Source: an uncultured Coriobacteriaceae bacterium
Lineage (GTDB): Bacteria > Actinomycetota > Coriobacteriia > Coriobacteriales > Atopobiaceae
Direction of reading: 5' to 3'
Assembly: GCA_902791035.1 (NCBI GenBank)
Contig: CADAUA010000001.1
Coordinates: forward strand, 62,001 to 126,000
DNA: 64,000 bases
In this document: positions 16,854 through 47,504 of the stretch, piece after piece
Layout of the letters: each line of letters opens with the position of its first letter
How positions within the stretch are numbered: the first letter of the stretch is position 1
Notes under the pieces: model-generated
Seen by the model: the letters and a program-made list of their open reading frames with translations, nothing else
Database searches by the model: none
What the model was told of the DNA's origin: nothing
Position numbers and translations under genes: made by a program

Positions 16854-16947
16854 CGGGGTTCGCCGCCGCGCACTTGGCTCGGCGTGTGCAAGCGGCTGGC
16901 CTTCTCGCCCGGCGTTCTGGCTGGCCTTCTCGCCGTCCTACTCGTCC

Positions 16948-17013
16948 CAGGCACCTGCGGGTGGTGACACCCTGTTACGCCAGGCACCTGCGGGTGGTGA
17001 CACCCTGTTACGC
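16948..17013. repeat. 33-bp tandem duplication
   Basis: CAGGCACCTGCGGGTGGTGA plus 13 further bases is present twice in exact tandem (16948-16980 and 16981-17013). It leads into the ACATGT palindrome cluster between the oxidoreductase gene and nuclease-like gene A. No gene is seen in 16854-17351. Confidence 0.85.
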
Positions 17014-17017
17014 CAGG

Positions 17018-17332
17018 CCCCTGCAAGTGACATGTCACTTGCAGGGGCATTCGTTTTGATTGCAGTTTATATAACTGCAGGTAGATGACCTGTGCTCTTG
17101 TGCCACCCCCTGGCCACGGCCACCTGCAAGTGACATGTCATGTTGTCCCTGGCCACGGCCACCTGTAAGTGACATGTCATGTTGTCCCTGGCCACGGCCA
17201 CCTGCAAGTGACATGTCACTTGCAGGTGGGCCAACATATGGTTGTAATTCATATAATAGCTGGTAGATGACCTGTGCTCTTATGCCGCCGCGTGACCGCA
17301 GCCACCTGCAAGTGACATGTCACTTGCAGGTG
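17018..17332. repeat. Cluster of ACATGT-centred palindromes with two stem-core elements
   Basis: Three 30-bp perfect palindromes with half-site (C)ACCTGCAAGTGACA or CCCCTGCAAGTGACA occur at 17018-17047, 17199-17228 and 17303-17332. A 39-bp tandem unit (CTGGCCACGG...) repeats three times at about 17110-17226 and contains the left half-site. The two intervals between palindromes hold a similar core: TTTATATAACTGCAGGTAGAT...GTGCT...GTGCC at 17073-17105 and TTCATATAATAGCTGGTAGAT...GTGCT...ATGCC at 17247-17285. The last palindrome ends 19 bp from the stop of gene A. Confidence 0.85.
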
Positions 17333-17351
17333 GCTCCAAGAATTGCGGGCG

Positions 17352-18617
17352 CTATGCATGGGGGCTAGCCAGGAACTCCGCATCGCGATCCAGCGCAGCC
17401 CAATATCCGGCATCAGACTCGATTGCCGGCGGTGCCTCGTCCGGCGGGCGTGAATCCTTGGCATCAGTGGCAGTCGCCGCCAGCACGCCCTCCCGCAGCA
17501 CTCGTCTGCGCCTTCGGAACGATGGCGTCGCGTAGGGTAGCTCATTACCCAACTGGCGGCAAATGTCCTCCATCGCTGCTACGAAGTGCCGATCGTCATC
17601 CACTTCCGGTGAGGTCAGCGTCGTGCACTCGTAGCCCTTGGCATGATAGGCCTTGTCGCGCAGAGATGTGTCTGCGATTCCCTGGTTGCCACCGTGATAG
17701 AGCCATCCGTTCGCTTCGAGCACGACTCGCCTGTCCTTCCAAGCAAAGTCGGGCGTGATGGCATCCAGCGAGACGAACCTCTGCGCCTCCGCGCTCAGCG
17801 GAAGCTTCCGGTTGATCAAGGGCTGTCTAATTCCCAGCGACCCGCATCGCCTGTCGCAGAAGGCCAAGGCCCAGATGCGCCATTCCAGGGGCGAGGCCAG
17901 TCGGTCCGTTACCAGCGGCAAGGCCCTTCTGAGCTTCCGCGCCCCATACATCCCCAGCGGCACCCAGTCTAGGAAGTGCTCGAGCTCCTGCCGCGTGATG
18001 AGCGGCTTGAGGCCATAGGCAGTCGCGGAGACGCAGGTTTGCGGCGTTGAGTCGCGCGGGTAAAGCTCCACTCGCACATTCGGAAGACTCCGGTAGAGGG
18101 GAACCTCGGCGGGGCGGATGGCCCTGAAGGTCCCGCAGAACTGGCTTGCCAGGTAGGCAACCTGCCAGTGGCTCAGTCCGGCGGAAAGCTGCATGAGCAA
18201 GAAGGCGGGCGGGAGGACGCATAGCTCAGGTACACCCTCGCGTGCGCCGCTGACGCCTATGAGCGTGTCCGAGGGGATGCGCGCCATGGTGTGCGGTCGC
18301 ATTCCCTTGGTTGCAGTCAGGCGTGTCCCGTCTGACACGACAATATCCACTGGTCGAGGCAGCAGCTCCGGAAGGGCGGCAACAAGCCCGTCCGGCAGTA
18401 ATCGCCGCGGCACGATGCGCCATAGGTCCGCATTGTCTCGTTCCGAGTCCACCGGGAGCGGCGGTTCACGGGGAAAAGTAGGAAACTCATCGCACTCAGG
18501 ACCGGCAACGGAATCAAAGGGCTCCAAGGGCTCAACGGGCTCGTCGACCCAGTAGCCATAGAGGTCGAGCAGCTCGACGCCGGACCTGTGGCTCACGATG
18601 ATTGCGTCGTCGTGCAC
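17352..18617 (-). CDS. Putative PD-(D/E)XK nuclease-fold / AbiEi-like protein, copy A
   Basis: A 421-residue protein not assigned to a named family. The N-terminus 'IVSHRSGVELLDLYG' and the C-terminal half align with the protein at 34259-35254. The C-terminal part has the order E245 (ASPLEW), D290 (ITPDFAW) and E301 (VVLEANG), a spacing compatible with a PD-(D/E)XK or DUF559-type endonuclease fold in which the final Lys is replaced (Asn). The end 'RRRRRVLREG' is strongly basic. GTG 18617 is the start: GGAGG lies six bases upstream, and the shared SH(R/A)(S/T) motif follows within ten residues. AbiEi-like resemblance is tentative. The gene is enclosed by palindromic repeats on both sides and has no obvious partner gene. 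Confidence 0.6.
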   Translation of the reverse strand: MHDDAIIVSHRSGVELLDLYGYWVDEPVEPLEPFDSVAGPECDEFPTFPREPPLPVDSERDNADLWRIVPRRLLPDGLVAALPELLPRPVDIVVSDGTRLTATKGMRPHTMARIPSDTLIGVSGAREGVPELCVLPPAFLLMQLSAGLSHWQVAYLASQFCGTFRAIRPAEVPLYRSLPNVRVELYPRDSTPQTCVSATAYGLKPLITRQELEHFLDWVPLGMYGARKLRRALPLVTDRLASPLEWRIWALAFCDRRCGSLGIRQPLINRKLPLSAEAQRFVSLDAITPDFAWKDRRVVLEANGWLYHGGNQGIADTSLRDKAYHAKGYECTTLTSPEVDDDRHFVAAMEDICRQLGNELPYATPSFRRRRRVLREGVLAATATDAKDSRPPDEAPPAIESDAGYWAALDRDAEFLASPHA

Positions 18618-18718
18618 AAAGCACCTCCGTCCTAGTCGACCGGGACCTGTCTCCACGTGATTTGGTGCGGATAGGATAGCAGGCACGAGCGGTTCTTGGC
18701 AGCCAGAAGGCGAAGTGT

Positions 18719-18814
18719 CACTTACAGGTGCCTAGCAATCTGGCTACTTCTGCGTTTTCGCAGGTAGATAGCTTGCTGCCTGCCTCGGCCTCTCGCGCGG
18801 GGCACCTGTAAGTG
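18719..18814. repeat. Stem-core-stem element upstream of gene A
   Basis: Arms CACTTACAGGTGCC (18719-18732) and GGCACCTGTAAGTG (18801-18814) are exact reverse complements around a 68-base interior containing TTTTCGCAGGTAGATAGCTT. A near-identical element lies at 19271-19366. The right arm continues into GACATGTCAGGTTTGGC. Confidence 0.85.
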
Positions 18815-19021
18815 ACATGTCAGGTTTGGCCATCAGCAAACAGGCACCTTTCGTGCGTCAGATGCCGTTCATGCGACAGGCACTTGTGCGCGGGGCACCT
18901 GCAAGTGACACTTCGCCGCCTCGGGCCGCTGGCTGCAGCGGCGGCGTAGAATCTCGCCTCACATCGGCAGTGTCCGTGATGCGGGCGGCGCTTCTTTCGA
19001 CCCTTGAAGGGACTGACGCTC

Positions 19022-19138
19022 ATGGACGACCTTGTCCTCAAAGTCCTGCAGGCAATCTATCTGGTTGCCGCCATAGCGAAAACGATCCATGAGCTGTGGA
19101 GGGAGTATAAGCACCCAACGGATGACGCTCAAGAGTAG
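19022..19138 (+). CDS. Possible small hydrophobic peptide (38 residues)
   Basis: ATG 19022 to TAG 19136-19138 encodes a peptide with one predicted amphipathic/hydrophobic helix (LVLKVLQAIYLVAAIAKTI) and a charged tail. AAGGGA lies about ten bases upstream, a loose spacing. A TAGAAT -10-like box is at about 18950. A GCGGGGC/GCCCCGC hairpin begins directly at the stop (19139-19166). The layout resembles type I toxin or small membrane-peptide genes, but I recognise no family. It lies between two stem-core elements. Confidence 0.35.
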   Translation: MDDLVLKVLQAIYLVAAIAKTIHELWREYKHPTDDAQE

Positions 19139-19270
19139 GCGGGGCCTGGCTGGCACCAAGCCCCGCTAAACCAACCAGCGCCGCCCGCTCTCGTTAGCCC
19201 ATCGGGCACTGCCGGTGCACTTGTCATTGTACCTGAGTAGCACCGCTCGCCAGCCCGAACGGCGAAGTGT

Positions 19271-19366
19271 CACTTACAGGTGCCTGGCAATCCAGCGCCA
19301 TCTGCATTTTCGCAGGTAGATGGCTTGCCGCTCGCCTCGGCCTCTCGCGCGGGGCACCTGCAAGTG
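19271..19366. repeat. Second copy of the 96-bp stem-core-stem element
   Basis: The left arm CACTTACAGGTGCC (19271-19284) pairs with GGCACCTGCAAGTG (19353-19366), with one T/G difference, around a 68-base interior with TTTTCGCAGGTAGATGGCTT. Length and layout match the copy at 18719-18814, about 550 bp away, in the same orientation. Confidence 0.85.
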
Positions 19367-19380
19367 ACATGTCAGGTTTG

Positions 19381-19471
19381 GCGGGCTGCGGTCAGGTTTG
19401 GCCGGCTGCGGTCAGGTTTGCCCGGCTGCGGTCAGGTTTGGCCGGCTGCGGTCAGGTTTGCCCGGCTGCGG
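19381..19471. repeat. 20-bp tandem repeat, about 4.5 copies
   Basis: The unit GSCGGCTGCGGTCAGGTTTG repeats with a 20-bp period. The GTCAGGTTTGGC segment is the same sequence that flanks the right arm of the neighbouring stem-core elements, so the array may have expanded from that flank. It lies downstream of rpsA. Confidence 0.85.
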
Positions 19472-19538
19472 CTGGCTGCGGCCAGCTCCGTCCAGCCCAG
19501 CTCCGTCCAGCCCCGGTCACCCGAATCCCCCACGCAAA

Positions 19539-33559: not shown

Positions 33560-33563
33560 TCGA

Positions 33564-34013
33564 CGTACTGACTTCGCGCTGGGGACGCCTCACTTTTCTC
33601 CGACCTTCAACCTCGGTACGCCCTTGTCGGCGTTTGCGCAGACAGCGGCGGCTCGGCCCGTACTGACTCTGCGGCACGCGGGCCTCTGCTCGGGCGGGGT
33701 TCCAACCTCAGTACGCCCCTGGCGGCGTTTGGCCAGTTGGCGGCGGCACAGGGCGTACTGACTTTGCGGCATGGGGGGCCTCAAGCGTGTCGGGGGCCAA
33801 CCTCAGTACGCCCTTGTCGGCATCTGTCCTGTTGGCGATCCTCCGGGCCGTACTGACTCTGCGGCTCGGACGCCCACAGGCGAGCCGAGTGTCAACCTCA
33901 GTACGCCCTTGTCGGCATCTGTCCTGTTGGCGATCCTCCGGGCCGTACTGACTCTGCGGCTCGGACGCCTGTGGGGCGGACAGAGCACCAACCCCAGTAC
34001 GCCCTCCGCTACA
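33564..34013. repeat. Array 1 of 95-bp repeats (upstream of gene B)
   Basis: The anchor CAACCTCAGTACGCCC recurs at 33611, 33706, 33801 and 33896 (exact 95-bp period), with a diverged fifth anchor near 33991. Each unit holds a 54-bp inverted-repeat module (TCAGTACG ... CGTACTGA, interior with CGGCRTYTG and GTTGGCG) and a 41-bp spacer with constant ends (CTYTGCGGC ... CAACC) and a variable middle of roughly 20-25 bases. The last two full units are nearly identical. No gene is seen from 33495 to 34258. Confidence 0.9.
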
Positions 34014-34258
34014 GATCGCATATGGACGCCCTGTGGAGGGCTTTCATCACCGAGAGAGCCCCTGTCACGGCAATACCCCTGCAGCACTCCCGAGCGCACA
34101 CCCCCTGACCTGCACCTTAGCGCCATCGTGGAAGATTGCTGGATGATTCGCGGAAGACCGCTGTAAGCCCCGGGGAAGATTGCGGGAACTTTCGGCCGCC
34201 ACAATCCAAGGCCAGCTTCCCATTTACCACGCCCGCCTATTCCCCAGGAGACGTCCAG

Positions 34259-35254
34259 ATGAGGTGCATCTGCTCACACGCCACAGCGCTATGGTACTGG
34301 TACCTGAGAGGACCAGCCCGTCTGCTCACCGCTCAGCCATACCTTGGCAACGCGCTCGAAGGCGCCGCCCACACTCGCGCACAGATATCACACTTTGACC
34401 TGGCCGGCGCCGGCATCAACCCCTGTCCCCCGTCCGTCATACCCTGTGCCAATCCAGGCGGCGAGCTCGACCTGCTCGTCTCGCCGGACGACTCGTGGCG
34501 CGCGCCGGAGGACATCCGGCTGCACAGGTGGTACGCGGGCTTTCCCGCCGGGTCACTCTACGTGGTTGGCAACGGCGTCCTCGTCTGTTCGCCTGAGCTC
34601 GCGCTCCTGCAGGTCGCCCGCTCGCTCACTGACACCCAGCTGATTCGCCTCGTCTTGTCGCTCTGCGGTCGCTATTACATCAATCCGGAAACCGACAAGG
34701 CTTGCGAGCGCAACCCCCTCACCACGATTGCTAAAATCCGGCAGCTGCTTGCCGGCGTTCCCGGGCGACTGGGCATTCGCCGCCTCAACAAGGTGCTTGC
34801 GCTGTGCGACGACGATGCCGCCTCGCCGACCGAGGTCGAGACGTATATGCTCGCGTGCCTGCCTGCGCGCATGGGTGGCTACGGTCTGGCTGGGGCAGAG
34901 CTCAACGGCAAGATCGACCTCAGCGGGACGGACGGCCGTCTGCTGGACAAGCCAGACAGGCAGTTCGTGAGGGTCGACCTGTACTGGCATGGCAAGCACG
35001 TCGGCATCGAGTACCAGAGCAAGGACCACGACGTCGTTGCGGACCGGCGGCGAATCAACATGCTCACGTCGCTGGGCGAGGACATCTTTCAGGTGGACGC
35101 TAGCCAGCGCAGCGACACCGACAGGTTTGACGCAACCATGGCGCAAGTGGCCAAGCGGCTTGGTCGGGAGGTGCCCGCACTCGAGAGCGAGTGGGTTTCC
35201 GCGAGAGGCGCCCTGCGTCGCGAGCTGCTCGGAGCCAACCGGATGAGGCTGTAA
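34259..35254 (+). CDS. Putative PD-(D/E)XK nuclease-fold / AbiEi-like protein, copy B
   Basis: A 331-residue protein of unassigned family, paralogous to the product of 17352-18617. Shared features are the N-terminal CSHATALWYWYLRG (SH-x-alpha-helix), the central 'PELALLQVA' helix and the C-terminal half: E192 (ASPTEV), 'LACLPARMGGYG', 'LNGKIDLSG', D240 (VRVDLYW), E251 (VGIEYQSK, with K255), then a helix 'VAKRLGREVP'. E...D-x10-E-x3-K is compatible with a PD-(D/E)XK-type active site; this is inferred from pattern, not proven. AGGAG stands eight bases before ATG 34259. The gene is flanked on both sides by arrays of the same 95-bp repeat. Confidence 0.6.
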   Translation: MRCICSHATALWYWYLRGPARLLTAQPYLGNALEGAAHTRAQISHFDLAGAGINPCPPSVIPCANPGGELDLLVSPDDSWRAPEDIRLHRWYAGFPAGSLYVVGNGVLVCSPELALLQVARSLTDTQLIRLVLSLCGRYYINPETDKACERNPLTTIAKIRQLLAGVPGRLGIRRLNKVLALCDDDAASPTEVETYMLACLPARMGGYGLAGAELNGKIDLSGTDGRLLDKPDRQFVRVDLYWHGKHVGIEYQSKDHDVVADRRRINMLTSLGEDIFQVDASQRSDTDRFDATMAQVAKRLGREVPALESEWVSARGALRRELLGANRMRL

Positions 35255-35275
35255 GGCTGCGGCGCAGGTCGGGGG

Positions 35276-35713
35276 CGTACTTACTTTCGTCGCGCGGGCC
35301 ACTGGGCGGGCTGGGGCCTGACCTCAGTACGCCCCTCTCGCCGTTTGGCCAGTTGGCGGGCTCAGGCCCCGTACTGACTTTGTGGCAGGGGCGCCCATAG
35401 GCGAGCCGGGACGCAACCTCAGTACGGCCTTGGCGACGTTTGGCCAGTTGGCGGGGTCCCGGGGCGTACTGACCTTGCAGCACGCGGCCCCAAATTGCGG
35501 CCAGTCCCGCAACCTCAGTACGCCCCTGGCGCCGTTTTCCCTGTTGACGGCCTCGTGCCCCGTACTGACTTTGCGCCGCGAGGGGCTGCGGGCGGGCCGA
35601 GCGCCAACCTCAGTACGCCCCTGGCGGCGTTTGGCCAGTTGGCGGGCTCAGGCCCCGTACTGACTTTGTGGCAGGGGCGCCCATAGGCGAGCCGGGACGC
35701 AACCTCAGTACGC
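35276..35713. repeat. Array 2 of 95-bp repeats (downstream of gene B)
   Basis: ACCTCAGTACG anchors recur at 35322, 35417, 35513, 35608 and 35703 (95, 96, 95 and 95 bp apart). They are the same family and the same orientation as array 1. The unit following 35322 and that following 35608 share an identical stretch of more than 80 bases including the spacer, pointing to recent duplication inside the array. The region up to the desulfidase gene (35255-35850) has no other gene. Confidence 0.9.
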
Positions 35714-35850
35714 CTCGCCGCCCCACGCCCCTCCCGGCCCCCACCCCACGTGAACGCAGTGTTGCCCGCGACCATCCGCGGCCGCCGGGCCGCAGCGCGC
35801 GCGGTATCCTTCACTAGTTGCCAAGCCCCTGCCGCGACCCCGGAGGACCC

Positions 35851-47141: not shown

Positions 47142-47504
47142 CCACGCCTAAGCGGGTCACCCTTCCCGCCACGGGACAACCCGGACGCCTAGCCGCCCCT
47201 AAGCGGGAGACCCTTCCCGCCGCGGGACAACCCGGACGCTTAGCCACGCCTAAGCGGGCCACCCTTCCCGCCGCGGGACAACCGCGACGCTTAGCCACGC
47301 CTAAGCGGGTCACCCTTCCCGCCGCGGGACAACCCGGACGCTTAGCCACGCCTAAGCGGGTCACCCTTCCCGCCGCGGGACAACCCGGACGCTTAGCCGC
47401 CCCTAAGCGGGTCACCCTTCCCGCCGCGGGACAACCGCGACGCTTAGCCGCCCCTAAGCGGGAGACCCTTCCCGCCGCGGGACAACCCGGACGCTTAGAG
47501 GACG
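47142..47504. repeat. 51-bp tandem repeat, seven copies
   Basis: CCTAAGCGGGTCACCCTTCC is the start of a 51-bp unit repeated seven times between glnN and the DUF308 gene. Each unit contains CTAAGCG ... CGCTTAG arms and a CCCGCCGCGGG palindrome, so each can fold. Because 51 is divisible by three, open frames run through on both strands as 17-residue repeats, but they lack good starts and are probably not genes. Confidence 0.9.

Follow-up and report, generated by a model that had tools for sequence, protein, structure and literature searches.

Gene B and its two repeat arrays

In the window, by which we mean the whole stretch of 64,000 nucleotides that was analysed, gene B lies between two arrays of one and the same 95-bp inverted-repeat unit (Table 1), and its neighbours, encoding a HAD hydrolase and a serine dehydratase alpha-chain (SDH_alpha) protein, are both intact. 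The bracketing of the gene on both sides, which the initial annotation had described, was confirmed by word positions, TRF and a repeat search. The arm words CTCAGTACGCC and GTACTGACTTTG occur five times each at steps of about 95 bp between 33565 and 33993, and five and four times, respectively, at similar steps between 35323 and 35704 (at most one mismatch in both cases). TRF reported a period of 95 at 33608-33969 and at 35321-35714, and the repeat search returned seven in-register copies with 61-76% identity to the reference copy. The final upstream arm ends about 250 bp 5' of the ATG of gene B, and the degenerate first downstream copy, GGCGTACTTACTTTCG at ~35275, follows about 20 bp past its stop codon. 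Within the window the arm words are confined to these two clusters (at most one mismatch), as had been claimed for the arrays, but the genome holds gene-less copies of the unit at three places beyond the window (C11:44206, C1:431112 and C6:67736-67992).

Table 1: Features of the gene B and gene A loci and repeats of further family members. Positions are those of the window.
Feature	Position	Strand	Description
Gene B	34259..35254	+	intact 331-aa frame; predicted Vsr-like/DUF559/EDxHD-type nuclease family protein
Upstream array	33560..34010	+	95-bp inverted-repeat unit, ~4.5 copies
Downstream array	35272..35716	+	95-bp unit of gene B, same orientation, ~4.5 copies, first degenerate
Example hairpin	35605..35670	+	phase suggested by homologues: CAACCTCAGTACGCC, loop core GTTTGGCCAGTTGGCG, CGTACTGACTTTG
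Loop core	33725..33750	+	GTTTGGCCAGTTGGCGG; variants at 33828, 33923, 35349, 35444, 35539, 35635
11-bp-phased GGAAG element	34127..34195	+	upstream of gene B ATG; candidate regulatory site
Gene A	17352..18686	-	second family member in the window
Gene A palindrome, downstream side	16940..17350		private palindrome ACCTGCAAGTGACATGTCACTTGCAGGT
Gene A palindrome, upstream side	18687..19520		private palindrome, GTGTCACTTACAGGTGCC pairs and 20-bp tandem
Gene A repeat	in window		CACCTGCAAGTGACATGTCACTTGCAGGTG
L009 repeat			GCAGACGTTCGGGG
L010 repeat			31-bp units with AAACCCGACTTGTGCGGC
L011 repeat			GTTGCCTACG
L012 repeat			AACACCGATAGGTAGTCCTCT
L015 repeat			GCATACACTCTGCG...CGCAGAGTGTATGC
L016 repeat			CTCTACTAACCTGAAGTTCGT, inverted pairs
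L018 repeat			AATAACGGACAGAAGTTG...CAACTTCTGTCCGTTATT
L228 (DUF559-type, beyond the order)			bracketed by CAGACACAAACTCGGGC...GCCCGAGTTTGTGTCTG
L233 (DUF559-type, beyond the order)			CGAGCAGACGCAAATGTCCC...GGGACATTTGCGTCTGCTCG nearby

Each unit contains an inverted repeat as proposed earlier, but its phase had to be corrected, as comparison with 82 homologous loci identifies the supposed variable 41-bp spacer with the hairpin loop. In the phase set by this comparison the functional hairpin most likely consists of the arm CAACCTCAGTACGCC, a loop with GTTTGGCCAGTTGGCG and the arm CGTACTGACTTTG. Folded as single-stranded DNA and compared with shuffles, the unit at 33702-33773 gave a clear signal (z -3.6) and the unit at 35605-35670 a weak one (z -1.3), and much stronger folding was seen for the longer hairpins of other family members (z -5.1 and -7.2). 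No sigma-70 promoters were found. The GGAAG element upstream of the ATG, phased by 11 bp or one helical turn, is a possible regulatory site; it is found as well before the paralogues L009 and L010 despite their unrelated arms, and of the 116 members scanned gene B and L009 alone passed a strict test for the phasing.

Repeats are also found away from the family genes. A 51-bp unit, CCTAAGCGGGTCACCCTTCCCGCCGCGGGACAACCCGGACGCTTAG, which is itself an inverted repeat, is repeated seven times in tandem at 47142-47498; no family gene adjoins these copies, which may represent an orphan array of the same kind. A dispersed palindrome other than that of gene A, AAACACAGGGGGTACTCCC(CTGTGTTT), is present in 10 copies in the window against 0.05 expected (sites include 1008, 5409, 39188, 39915, 39937, 59177, 59205, 62448 and 62469), and it recurs at L015, L017, L018 and L148, several of these loci being in the same genome.

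Predicted fold and residues of the gene B protein

The AlphaFold (AF2) model of the gene B protein, built on 93 family sequences, has a mean pLDDT of 94.6 and a pTM of 0.93. Its best credible Foldseek match is the catalytic domain of I-Bth0305I (3r3p; probability 0.99, rmsd 2.9 Å over 70 columns, E only 0.045), other matches being DUF559 and Vsr-type viral proteins, and a search of PDB chains with the family profile returned 3r3p (E 4.8e-5) and 3hrl (E 5.6e-4). Model and profile searches hence agree with the nuclease core suspected before and predict a domain of the Vsr/DUF559/EDxHD type, not the HUH fold of RAYTs. Gene B itself matched no Pfam model, including Y1_Tnp, DUF559 (PF04480) and MTES_1575 (PF18741), and its N-terminal region gave no confident match. 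Among the 93 members, 13 matched DUF559 and 25 matched MTES_1575 (E < 0.01), and the paralogue L013 passes the DUF559 gathering threshold with 42.5 bits (cut-off 20.6).

The acidic part of the E192/D240/E251/K255 pattern from which a nuclease had been suspected stands, with glutamate 192 conserved in 92 and aspartate 240 in all 93 homologues and position 251 mostly glutamate (E in 70, N in 20, D in 3); since 20 of the 93 have asparagine there, some members may be inactive. Position 255 is lysine in only 6/93 homologues, and therefore a PD-(D/E)XK lysine is unsupported and was ruled out. R265 (88/93) and D262 (78/93) are also conserved. The fold and the acidic residues fit an EDxHD nuclease, whose motif is only partly present because the histidine column of the alignment contains H in just 27/93 sequences.

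AbiEi was matched weakly, by one of the 93 members (E 0.003), as were restriction and defence models. These matches would suit a sequence-specific DNA binder with an AbiEi-like middle and a DUF559 nuclease, acting in regulation or defence, for which the repeats, spread by other means, would be operators governing its own expression or recognition sites that label the DNA as self. The hairpins located directly upstream of the start in many members and the 11-bp-phased element before three paralogues also point in this direction. Operators, however, need no two-sided flanking, no tandem arrays and no dispersal as inverted pairs with diverged spacers, and the genes beside gene B, for the hydrolase and the dehydratase chain, include no toxin partner. 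We therefore consider such a regulator or defence nuclease unlikely. An AbiE type IV toxin-antitoxin system was rejected, given the single AbiEi match and a neighbourhood of gene B in which no AbiEii toxin partner is found. Phage or plasmid cargo was discarded as well, as tblastn gave no match for gene B in plasmids and none for the paralogue L012 in phages.

Private repeats of paralogues and homologues

A search of the genome with gene B gave 12 homologous genes, the full-length members, and an alignment profile raised the number of matches to 14. In the stretches taken around these matches, most members have, up- and downstream of the gene, a private hairpin repeat that differs from member to member (Table 1). 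The assumption of one generic repeat type was thus abandoned, and gene A, so named by the initial annotation, turned out to be a paralogue of gene B with its own repeat. The members L013, L017 and the one on C29 have no 12-mers common to both gene flanks; for L017 and C29, a long hairpin does lie upstream. Several of the private repeats are also dispersed. The palindrome of gene A is present at 22 further genomic places, and 17 of these are inverted pairs of about 133 bp in which the palindromes and ends are well conserved around a diverged spacer with the core TCTACCTGC..TATA.AA.C.GC, an arrangement that by its anatomy appears to be a REPIN or BIME. The 31-bp repeat of L010 forms three gene-less arrays (G000 C6:1637-2197, C5:171031-172298 and C1:247377-247741).

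Members of the family are present in 132 of the 140 genomes of the taxonomic family, mostly as multiple copies (1-17 per genome), and strong full-length matches are limited to the order. Taking at least five common 12-mers between the 600-bp upstream and downstream flanks as the criterion, we found shared repeats around 36 of 71 family genes compared to 3 of 62 control genes taken from those stretches (Fisher p = 2e-9). With the other genomes only, the ratio was 28/58 members to 3/62 controls (p = 4e-8), so homologues in related bacteria do sit in repeats far more often than controls, although these counts are not fully independent events because the sampled members include orthologues from related species. 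A long-loop hairpin (loop of at least 25 nt, at most 450 bp from the gene) accompanies 57/96 members from the taxonomic family of the window; for members from two further families of this order the figure is 12/20, and for control genes 3/70. Even among weaker DUF559-type homologues from 18 genomes of other actinobacterial families, private hairpins bracket 12 of 30 genes, compared with none of 30 alpha/beta-hydrolase genes serving as matched controls from the same genomes (p = 1e-4). Chance or low-complexity repeats as the source of the pattern are ruled out by the control genes. At the thresholds used, about 40-50% of the members are without adjacent repeats, and the association is therefore strong but not universal; homologues of this kind, which had been named in advance as evidence against a link, do exist, and the rest are flanked.

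These controls also bear on a neutral co-location, in which fast-evolving, non-essential genes would come to lie in intergenic hot spots where hairpin repeats accumulate. Tandem and palindromic repeats indeed abound in the genome (TRF gave 34 rows for the window) and the gene regions diverge faster than their neighbours, but control genes of the same stretches are rarely flanked, the arms are paralogue-specific and conserved with orthologues, and the private motif on one side of the gene is also that on the other. Neutral co-location is already disfavoured and we regard it as highly improbable.

A comparison of nine repeats of the genome with 139 other genomes of the family gave no match at E <= 1e-3, a result that excludes strong matches only. 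Between syntenic orthologues with at least 75% identity the arms are nearly unchanged, and in non-syntenic pairs the arms become more similar as protein identity increases (permutation p = 2e-4) under a mismatch-tolerant scoring, exact k-mer sharing being too strict for this comparison. The arms thus move and evolve together with the gene. The loops, on the other hand, have words in common between members with unrelated arms, CGCAGGT being found at 9 and CCAGTTG at 8 of 57 loci (shuffles predict 0.7 and 0.8, respectively), and most units of gene B contain the CCAGTTG-type core GTTTGGCCAGTTGGCG. Of 92 non-redundant members, 7 have the extended word CC[AT]GTTGGC in their flanks, compared with none of 92 control stretches at a distance of 1 kb. 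ACCTGCG alone is enriched within the hairpin loops only and not over whole flanks (36 vs 29 of 92). As judged from these shared words, the element is bipartite, with variable private arms of 12-50 bp and a semi-conserved loop of usually 25-110 nt.

Loop cores common to elements with unrelated arms could also mean that another enzyme moves the repeats, namely a resident Y1/HUH transposase or a recombinase acting on the shared core (ACCTGC/GCAGGT or CCAGTTGG), with the nuclease being carried along or making use of the site at a later stage. The CTAC at the edge of the core hairpin in the gene A element fits this idea, as it recalls the GTAG/CTAC tag of REPs (PMC8266576). Among the 57 loops CTACCTGC is found in five, where CTAC sits in the loop and not beside the arms, and it is not a general feature. 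Movement by another enzyme explains neither why the arms beside a nuclease are specific to it and diverge along with it nor why the association exists in distant actinobacteria, and we find it still less probable than the regulator or defence nuclease.

Turnover of the units and a possible gene-repeat partnership

The fate of gene and repeats can be followed in G112 and G090, two species of one genus with 14-15 family members each. Four loci of G112 (L175, L158, L178 and L167) are empty in G090, the gene and the flanking repeats both being absent, and only 15-250 bp are found where G112 has 1.6-2.3 kb; the L175 unit, for example, measures about 1.9 kb and its counterpart about 15 bp. In this comparison the repeats of L175 and L165 occur in G112 only and those of L168 and L170 in G090 only. 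Repeats of the L159 and L160 types are dispersed also in G112, which has no syntenic gene there, and thus repeats can outlive the gene or occur without it, and the protein may be dispensable for keeping them. Repeats in genomes without the gene, the other observation named beforehand as speaking against the link, are therefore real for these two types. The flanking repeats of L175, L158, L178 and L167 are missing from the empty sites together with the gene. Inverted pairs spaced by 100-120 bp are seen in G112 and G090 as well. Around dispersed L165- and L175-type copies of G112 the flanks lie nearer to each other in G090 by about the element length or more, and the empty-site alignments at dispersed elements are too diverged to define a target-site duplication or junctions. 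Presence and absence alone would not demonstrate transposition, as a deletion between repeats would fit too.

Two further observations were made in this genus. At L171/L172 the chromosomal flanks of G112 and G090 are the same (96% and 88% identical) and the region of the family gene is too diverged for DNA alignment, with 75% protein identity and related arms. The word GGCGAGAAGAACC (or GGCGAGAAGGACC) marks outer unit and arm edges, e.g. at L175, L173 and L176, and is also present in many flanks of the genus; it borders the L175 unit on both sides as well as the empty site and is possibly a target or a further dispersed repeat.

We propose, with a probability of roughly 0.55, that gene B belongs, as a single unit, to a large family of REPtron-like gene-repeat partnerships built on an unrelated nuclease. 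Each unit combines a standalone Vsr-like nuclease gene with its own inverted-repeat hairpins, several units having gene-less copies elsewhere. We infer that the protein would recognise the inverted arms of its own repeat via its N-terminal region and dimer symmetry and that its nuclease domain would nick or cut the DNA at or beside the hairpin. Repair or copying from another copy would then spread, amplify and homogenise the repeat and occasionally move the gene along with it, by a chemistry of the homing-endonuclease type in place of HUH single-strand transposition. By analogy the pair of gene and repeat looks like a selfish partnership with a REP/RAYT-like way of working. A RAYT-like relation with another protein fold had been suggested at the outset, and it agrees with the flank statistics, the dispersed pairs and the Vsr-like fold, the action of the protein on the repeats being its conjectural part. 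The chances are about even that this extends to a class of selfish systems in several actinobacterial families, most elaborate in the order studied here. Each Vsr/DUF559-type nuclease would then keep up and propagate a hairpin repeat of its own, and the REPtron principle would have been invented independently, with enzyme and target co-diversifying into a dozen distinct pairs per genome.

If the proposed partnership is true, DUF559 and its relatives, a large and so far uncharacterised family of nucleases, would gain a function, and REP-like repeat families would prove to be linked to an enzyme that is no relative of the HUH transposases. Up to a dozen natural nuclease-target pairs, each distinct from the others, would be available per genome with targets that are legible from the flanks, and therefore DNA recognition as well as the spread and persistence of repeats in bacterial genomes would become directly testable. 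The enzymes might also find use as nucleases whose recognition sites are long and known. In the open-access papers that were searched we found neither a function or repeat link for DUF559 nor an earlier description of a system of a nuclease with a private repeat.

Among known systems, REPtrons, in which TnpAREP is documented to co-evolve with REP, are similar in having a dedicated protein gene flanked by cognate palindromes, repeats that are dispersed, frequently as an inverted pair around a variable linker and also in tandem, and a co-divergence of protein and repeat (PMC8266576). Dispersal is found here for gene A (22 places, 17 pairs) and at only three other places for gene B. In contrast to REPtrons, the protein is predicted to be a Vsr/EDxHD-type and not a HUH/Y1 enzyme, a genome contains 1-17 copies with many diverged paralogues instead of mostly one, and long arms usually surround a loop of 25-110 nt. 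Moreover, the gene units undergo turnover among related species, in contrast to tnpAREP, for which there is no evidence of mobility (PMC8266576). The gene B system is thus not a REPtron, because its enzyme is unrelated to HUH/Y1. The EDxHD homing endonucleases share the E and D residues and include with I-Bth0305I the closest solved catalytic domain (3r3p); this enzyme reportedly dimerises on a target of nearly 60 bp, which is compatible in size with the inverted repeats described here (PMC3943268). Unlike them, gene B is standalone, outside an intron, intein or target gene, has its own flanking repeats and a different N-terminal part, and would cleave DNA only by analogy. The DUF559 (PF04480) and MTES_1575 (PF18741) proteins of Actinomycetota, finally, differ in that gene B itself reaches neither Pfam model, but they are its sequence relatives, and weaker homologues of the DUF559 type are likewise flanked by private repeats in 12 of 30 cases.
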